58,409 nt of DNA, taken from the NCBI GenBank assembly GCA_022616535.1, contig JAKEEM010000015.1, positions 1 through 58,409 on the forward strand, in the 5' to 3' direction. The notes beneath the pieces were generated by a model that saw nothing but the letters and a program-made list of their open reading frames with translations, was not told where the DNA came from and made no database searches. Source of the DNA: Chlorobiota bacterium (GTDB lineage: Bacteria > Bacteroidota > Ignavibacteria > Tepidaquicellales > OLB5). A program made the translations under genes and the position numbers. This document shows positions 29,194 to 30,418 of the stretch, piece by piece (positions within the stretch are counted from its first letter, which is position 1; each line of letters begins with the position of its first letter).

Positions 29194-29581
29194 AAAGCAC
29201 CACCTGTCACCCTAAAGGATGACAAGTATAATCAACCAAAATATTAAAAATCTTATAATTGATAAAGCAAAAGAGCTTGGCTTTGTGAAAATTGGCTTTG
29301 CCAAATACGAATTGCTTGAAAATGAATCTGGGAAACTCCGCAAGTGGCTTGATTTGGGTTATGACTCAGATATGGCGTGGATTGAAAAAGGATTTGAAAA
29401 GCGTAAAGATATAAGATTAATAATGGAAGATGCAAAGAGTGTGATTTCGCTGGCTTACAATTATTACACTCCTTTTACACATGAAGAGGGAAAGCCGAAA
29501 ATTTCACGCTATGCATGGGGGAAGGATTATCACAAAGTCTTAAAGAAAAAATTGAACGAACTGTGCAGGTTGATTGAAAAG

Positions 29582-29721
29582 ACCTCCCCCTACCCTGTTA
29601 CGTTGCTGAGAAATCGCAACAGCCCTTCGGGTCTAGCTAAGGAGTGGACGATGAGCAGTCTCCCCCTTAACAAGGGGGGTGTCCGCCCGCCTGCGGAACG
29701 GGCAGGAAGGACGAGGGGGTC
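29582..29721. repeat. Composite nested palindromic insertion in queG
   Basis: Order: GACCTCCCCC arm, hairpin GTTGC..GCAAC (29612-29630), GCTAAGGAGTGGACG arm, then CTCCCCCTTAACAAGGGGGG (29670-29689), hairpin CGCCTGCGGAACGGGCAGG, and a GAGGGGGTC end. It looks like two palindromic elements, each carrying another inside its loop. It leaves the queG frame shifted. Confidence 0.65.
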
Positions 29722-30150
29722 AAGACAAAATATTACGTCGATGACGGACCGGTGATGGATAAAGTGTGGGCTCAGAAATCCGGCGTTGGCTGGATGGGTA
29801 AGCATACTAATATCATAAATCCCGAATACGGCTCATGGCTGTTCTTATGCGAGATAATTACAAATATCGAGTTTGGAAATTATGACATGCCGATTGAAGA
29901 TTTATGCGGAAGCTGTTCGCTTTGCATCTCTGCTTGTCCCACCGGAGCAATTACGGAAGAATACATCGTTGATGCAAATAAATGTATCTCTTATCAGACG
30001 ATTGAAAACAAAGGTGAAATTCCCGATAGCATTGATTTAAGCGGTTGGATATTCGGCTGTGACATTTGCCAGGATGTTTGTCCATACAACTCGCCGAAGT
30101 ATAACCACATAACCGAAGATACGAGCTTTTACCCGAAGGAAGAGCTTTTA

Positions 30151-30239
30151 AGTCCCCCTTCTAAGGGCGATTTAGGTGGATGTGTAATTCAGACCTCCCC
30201 CAACCCCCTCCTTGCTAAGGAGGGGACGAAAGGCGAGCT
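30151..30239. repeat. In-frame palindromic repeat pair in queG
   Basis: AGTCCCCCTTCTAAGGGCGA and then GACCTCCCCC..CTCCTTGCTAAGGAGGGGAC. These are the same two element types as at 29582-29721, in the opposite order. They encode the stretch SPPSKGDLGG ... SPNPLLAKEG just after the second Fe-S motif, without breaking the frame. Confidence 0.7.
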
Positions 30240-30418
30240 CATTATACCAAAGGGGTTCGCAGCCAAAGCCGAGCTTGAAGCTATAACCGAGGAACAATTC
30301 AACTATGCATTTGCCGATTCACCGATTAAACGGACTAAGTTTAAGGGTTGGAGAAGAAATTTGGAGAGAATAAAATAATTATTATTAATATTTTCAAATG
30401 AATTAAATTAAAAAGAAT

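Follow-up and report, generated by a model that had tools for sequence, protein, structure and literature searches.

The queG locus and its two reading frames

The window, a stretch of 58,409 nucleotides from a Chlorobiota bacterium (genome G000) that groups with metagenome-assembled genomes of the class Ignavibacteria, carries a queG gene (epoxyqueuosine reductase) that is divided between two reading frames and contains palindromic repeats at two places. The features of this locus, in window coordinates, are as follows.

29219..29755, forward strand: 5' part of queG, 178 aa, matching TIGR00276 positions 1-117 and PF08331
29580..29721, forward strand: site 1, a compound repeat in which hairpins A and B form a head-to-head dimer between outer arms (29581-29589 and 29713-29721) that are complementary to each other; intact at L004, L006, L008, L034, L054, L055 and other loci
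29593..29634, forward strand: module N1, in place of the 5' arm of hairpin A; 5 copies in G000, 0 in 14 other genomes searched
29660..29679, forward strand: hairpin B, CTCCCCCTT-AAC-AAGGGGGG, with a run of six G (G6) at 29674-29679; site of a one-base shortfall relative to related genomes
29671..30378, forward strand: 3' part of queG, in another frame, matching TIGR00276 about 119-263 and PF13484
29680..29712, forward strand: hairpin slot C (TGTCC...GGAC), where other copies have palindromes that vary in sequence
29686..29706, forward strand: module N2, 21 nt, within slot C, frame kept; 5 places in G000 (4 exact) and 1 in G004
30150..30181, forward strand: first unit of site 2, AAGTCCCCCTT..AAGGGCGATTTAGGTGGAT, distinguished from B by its flanks (compare L015)
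30191..30228, forward strand: second unit of site 2, a single A unit with tail AGACCTCCCCCAAC, hairpin at 30205-30225 and ACG head, in frame

Homology in the 5' part runs as far as LCRLIEK and is followed by element-encoded residues and then by out-of-frame sequence. The 3' frame, which is open from 29671 with its first listed start codon at 29752, includes the YVDDGP motif and the 4Fe-4S clusters. The protein reads TSPYP...LPLNKGG before the shift and, in the other frame, CPPACGTGRKDEGV after it (longer stretch CPPACGTGRKDEGVKTKYYVDDGP); the counterparts in G010, TSPNP...LPLTKGE and CPKDEGV, are homologous. The two halves score 88.5 and 180.8 bits against TIGR00276 in their different frames, and neither reaches the curated cut-off of 200 bits, which was applied to intact single-ORF queG. 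A QueG match was obtained in all 39 genomes searched, above this cut-off in 37 of them. Both halves are otherwise undamaged, with no additional stop or shift.

Anatomy of the insertion sites

The palindromic elements noticed at both places by the first-pass annotation are members of genome-wide families. Site 1, described there as two separate elements, is instead one compound unit, found whole at C20, C47 and C62 of G000 and also in relatives. Its layout, as given by other copies in the genome, is AGACCTCCCC, hairpin A (CCCCTCCTT..AAGGAGGGG), ACG..CGT, hairpin B (CTCCCCCTT..AAGGGGGAG), slot C and GAGGGGGTC. In the window copy the outer arms are GACCTCCCC and GAGGGGGTC, with the third hairpin slot (C) inside them. 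Neither half of the unit has a hairpin nested in its loop, as had been supposed: N1 takes the place of the 5' arm of hairpin A, the 3' arm of which (AAGGAGTGG) persists at 29639-29647, and N2 lies downstream of hairpin B, in slot C, the loop of B being a clean 3 nt. All five N1 copies in G000 occupy one identical place in unit A, so that N1 belongs to a composite subfamily and does not represent an event specific to queG. The other G000 places of N2 are all outside the compound unit. The notion of repeat-within-repeat growth holds in that the N1 and N2 modules sit inside a larger repeat and that tandem copies occur at the queG site of G005, but not for the arrival of N1, which came within a pre-existing composite subfamily.

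The arms of slot C vary from copy to copy (GTCC/GGAC, GGCC/GGCC, GGTC/GACC, CCGC/GCGG, GCCCT/AGGGC, GGGCT/AGCCC or longer palindromes) and are still complementary, indicating that pairing is maintained while the sequence changes; this evidence consists of stems listed copy by copy. Compared with 200 shuffled sequences, the queG copy of G010 (z -4.5, RNA) and one copy of G005 (z -3.3, DNA) fold more stably, whereas the window copy of site 1, in which N1 has displaced the 5' arm of hairpin A, is not distinct from the shuffles (z -1.2). An Rfam search of the queG region gave no match at E<=1.

Site 2 (30150-30228) had been taken for the site-1 types in reverse order. It is made of a unit of a different family followed by a lone A unit: the first unit has its core in common with hairpin B but has its own flanks, like those at L015 (AAGTCCCCCTT..GGGCGATTTAGGTGGAT).

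Dispersion of the repeats

The pattern GACCTCCCC-NNANN-CCCCTCCTT-NNN-AAGGAGGGG, with up to 3 mismatches, occurs at 3 places in G000 and at up to 18 in relatives, and the reversed-pattern controls all gave 0 matches; the elements are therefore genome-wide families and not chance occurrences. In a 400 kb random sample of G001, which is ~87% coding, none of 10 intact elements lies within an ORF, so that they are normally extragenic; the zero is a lower bound, since the strict patterns used miss degraded intragenic copies such as the insert in the PurL of G001 itself. The A-unit pattern was found in 115 stretches of species-representative genomes, many of them Ignavibacteria bins. Stretches with this 35-nt palindrome pattern (L102-L181) also come from bins assigned to Scalindua, Nitrospinota, Patescibacteria, Chloroflexi and Armatimonadota. 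In the G001 sample (L238-L257), the word repeated most often inside genes, according to an unbiased k-mer scan, encodes NYPNPFNP-like C-terminal tails and is not a REP.

Y1 transposase genes are present in 33 of the 39 genomes. In 20 stretches, most of them around Y1 genes (G000, G001, G005, G008), none of these genes is flanked by queG-type elements; a Y1_Tnp/RAYT protein was discarded as the mover, the Y1 genes examined being flanked by hairpins of their own. Several such loci are bounded by similar hairpin pairs, for example CCCACGACTTTAGTCGTGGG, CCCCGCCATTTATGGCGGGG and CGATGGGCTAAAGCCCATCG (L222, L223, L226, L227, L229, L230, L231, L235), some with extra solo hairpins close by. A separate array in G005 (L232:953-1384) consists of five units of the ACCACCCCTxG-CCCCTCCTAATATAGGAGGGG type, spaced by about 80-140 bp.

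Occupancy of the queG loops in related genomes

The comparison covered 13 other family members with a readable queG (G001-G014 without G012). In the sister genus g2, an in-frame insert is present at site 1 in 12 of 12 genomes with a readable queG and at site 2 in 11 of 11. The site-1 interval between anchors measures 32-155 aa in g2, longer in all 12 than in G002 of genus g3, where it is empty (21 aa), and is near-constant in the 24 genomes of the sister family f2 (23 aa; 27-28 in one genus). The site-2 interval is 37-39 aa in f2 and 39-69 aa in g2. Wherever measurable in relatives, both intervals are multiples of three, site 1 of the window being the sole exception. In the solved QueG homologues 5d08 and 5d6s, the alignment has small length differences at the site-1 position, as would be expected if site 1 were a tolerant turn.

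The occupants differ. At site 1, A/B dimers are found in G000, G001, G010 and G014, in G010 and G014 at the same codon and frame as in the window (TSPNP..LPLTKGE..EGV); hairpins of the CCCTCTCC type in G003, G005 (in tandem), G008 and G013; hairpins of the CCCTCCCC type in G006, G007 and G011; a CCCCCCTTT hairpin in G004; and a GAGATTGCCTCGTC repeat in G009. This amounts to at least 5 element families at site 1, named by eye from their core sequence. The A, C and D families, which have a GACCTC-like tail in common, may be related, in which case the independent events would be fewer. Site 2 holds other types, TCATCCTGAGCG in G009 and CTTCGACTACGCTCAG in G001 and G004, with a variant in G005. 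Even the closest sisters (G008/G010, G004/G013, G001/G005) have different families at site 1. On a tree built from QueG and PurL only, some nodes of which are weak (support 0.45-0.69), the site-1 types change 7 times for 5 states and the site-2 types 8 times, like shuffled labels. At site 1 of the G005 queG (L084), a hairpin unit (CCCTCTCCT) with its flanks has been amplified in tandem, adding about 130 residues, all in frame.

Other genes are affected in the same manner. The PurL gene of G000 (L265:14419-16767, reverse strand; L290) contains two in-frame palindromic inserts, the first at a spot that is also filled in G001 and G005 and empty in others. A CxxCxxCC protein of G000 (L259:15133-15801, reverse strand) has an insert of roughly 55 residues composed of three palindromic elements, in a loop that is variably filled among relatives. 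Both cases come from sample stretches of G000. The queG gene is the most saturated of those seen, and the pattern is common to several genes.

Origin of the broken frame

Site 2 is in frame and site 1 is not, as the first-pass annotation had observed, and queG consequently extends over two frames. The attribution of the shift to the composite at site 1 has to be abandoned. N1 leaves the first queG frame intact, and N2, being exactly 21 nt, amounts to seven residues in the second. Because both modules are frame-neutral, the site-1 interval must lack one base, when compared with relatives, at the 3' arm of hairpin B, beside the G6 run; this single missing base therefore argues that repeat growth is not the cause of the broken queG. 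From the sequence, the frame break is best read as a separate one-base event, the repeats at both sites being frame-neutral. It reflects a recent mutation or else a local error in the sequence. Among the 14 family members compared, the window copy alone is out of frame and the 13 others read through. The proposal that site 1 marks a threshold between tolerance and gene loss fails on size, because G005 keeps its frame with a site-1 interval of 155 residues, where relatives with an empty site have 21-23.

A sequencing or assembly error at a G6 run within a strong hairpin, leaving queG in reality intact with its inserts in frame, has an even chance of being correct: the shortfall is exactly one base and adjoins both the run and the hairpin arm, the frame is kept in 13 of 13 relatives, and with QueA intact and no QueH the loss of QueG would leave the pathway incomplete. 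It has to be set against the absence of any general excess of broken frames on the contig; with a coding fraction of 0.92 and ORFs averaging 364 aa (G001: 0.89 and 344 aa), the window is normal in coding density and ORF length, so that an assembly frameshift-prone overall is not indicated. The same normal ORF lengths, a genome that is 98% complete and the frame as given speak for a real and recent loss that has inactivated QueG in the G000 strain, to which slightly less than an even chance is accorded. Short runs of G and hairpins are prone to mutate, and laboratory bacteria tolerate the loss of QueG; the otherwise undamaged state of both halves would fit a very recent loss or an error alike. 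A real break should halt the pathway at epoxyqueuosine, since no second QueG was found in the G000 genome, where queG is single, and QueH, absent from 20 of 20 genomes searched, is ruled out as a backup. A third reading would have the ribosome join the frames: they overlap at 29671-29755, the G6 run lies within this overlap, and a candidate -1 slip site, G_GGG_GGT (codons AAG GGG GGT), directly precedes a predicted hairpin in slot C/N2, so that a slip could give full-length QueG. Such a bypass is highly improbable, there being zero spacer between slip site and stem and none of the relatives being arranged in this way, all of them plainly in frame.

Probable turnover of palindromes in protein loops

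In the genomes compared, the same queG loops are occupied recurrently by REP/RPE-like DNA of different families. The explanation that we consider probable is that short REP/RPE-like palindromes have spread in this family, that a few protein loops have been refilled repeatedly, and that queG has been split by a separate one-base change. The elements would be short non-coding palindromes, namely two hairpins dimerised head to head, whose long tails are complementary, and other hairpin families, which spread through the bacterial family and land mostly between genes. Two loops of queG, one just 5' of YVDDGP and one after the iron-sulphur domain, would be refilled with different families, selection purging the copies that break the frame or carry stops. 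The peptides of the surviving inserts would be flexible, TSPNPLLxKEG and TSPPSPLLKGEGG being examples. A resident palindrome may itself act as a landing pad, into which new palindromes insert or with which they recombine; such events would lead to elements that are nested, amplified in tandem, or replaced by others with orientation and frame unchanged. The stronger proposal, that a palindrome-recognising machinery keeps inserting or swapping palindromes of any family at a resident palindrome, in the same sense, and so continually rewrites the loops, is tentative and rather doubtful. It agrees with published cases of REPs nested within palindromes (PMC3733652) and with the constancy of sense and frame at the two queG sites, but plain tolerance of two loops together with a high insertion rate could yield the same picture. 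Turnover was read from comparison between species, and no target-site duplication was established.

A single ancestral insertion per site, inherited by genera g1 and g2 and then diverged, would account for junctions that agree to within about 3 residues, for the recurrent frame and orientation, for the A/B dimer common to G000, G001, G010 and G014, and for the empty site 1 in genus g3 and family f2. It is nevertheless unlikely, given at least 5 hairpin cores at site 1, the differences between closest sisters and the lack of phylogenetic signal. One ancient first insertion followed by replacement is compatible with the data and forms part of the preferred explanation by repeated refilling. Still less credible is the idea that the inserts serve the protein, for instance as partner-binding loops, and are selected as peptides. 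The recurrence of one frame (TSPxP.. / ..KGE) and one sense, although other frames of the elements are also open on inspection of the sequence, speaks for it, but the length of the site-1 interval differs widely between related species (32 to 155 residues), and PurL and the CxxCxxCC protein, which are unrelated, contain similar peptides.

In-frame palindromic repeats within genes have been described for the most part in Rickettsia and in scattered REP-rich genomes, and they may be either chance survivors or targeted to particular positions. The queG gene offers a natural series: two sites can be followed through 13 related species and many element families, the outgroups are empty, and the product of the enzyme can be measured. 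Such a series allows site preference, turnover and tolerance to be tested, both by comparison and by complementation of a laboratory queG mutant. If the landing-pad proposal is true, mobile DNA continually rewrites loops in a few conserved proteins of a genus.

Comparison with known repeat systems

The Rickettsia palindromic elements (RPE-1 etc.; PMC3733652, PMC2635572) are likewise palindromic repeats found in frame in housekeeping proteins, inside and outside genes, at times with two inserts per gene. In the present genomes, in-frame inserts occur in conserved proteins (QueG, PurL, CxxCxxCC), with site 1 empty in f2 and G002. The situation differs in that several families occupy the same two sites across a genus, that the hosts are Ignavibacteria with 2-4 Mb genomes rather than obligate intracellular bacteria, and that the units are composite, nested and tandemly amplified, the RPEs being compared here by description.

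A structural parallel is offered by the CGTC-tagged REPs (Di Nocera et al. 2013, PMC3733652), which have 9-bp stems, occur predominantly as head-to-head dimers of unlike units and include intragenic members, and for which no transposase is known. The stems CCCCTCCTT/AAGGAGGGG and CTCCCCCTT/AAGGGGGAG measure 9 bp, within the 8-9 bp of that class; 16 head-to-head dimers were extracted by a dimer-selecting pattern, single units also existing (L010, site 2); and no transposase gene is flanked by the elements in the 20 stretches examined. That class bears, at one of its ends, an unpaired CGTC (or TGTC/CCTC) tag; here ACG/CGT adjoins the stem in most G000 copies, with the last C of the tag inside the stem, whereas in many copies of relatives the tag has drifted (ACTT, TGT, ATC). 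Further differences are the third hairpin slot, the loop of 3, and the tails, which are 10-15 nt long (GACCTCCCCTAAAT) and complementary between the two units, in place of a short CCA-like tail of about 3 nt. The REPIN/RAYT system shares the inverted hairpin pairs and the presence of Y1 transposases in the same genomes; the units described here lack its GTAG tag, and the Y1 genes examined bear their own, different terminal hairpins, so that no RAYT flanked by queG-type elements was seen.

In Xanthomonas, REP inserts lie at about the same recB site in two species (PMC3733652). The likeness resides in different REPs occupying about one site of one gene; in the present case, the phenomenon extends to two sites, 13 species of two genera and at least two other genes.
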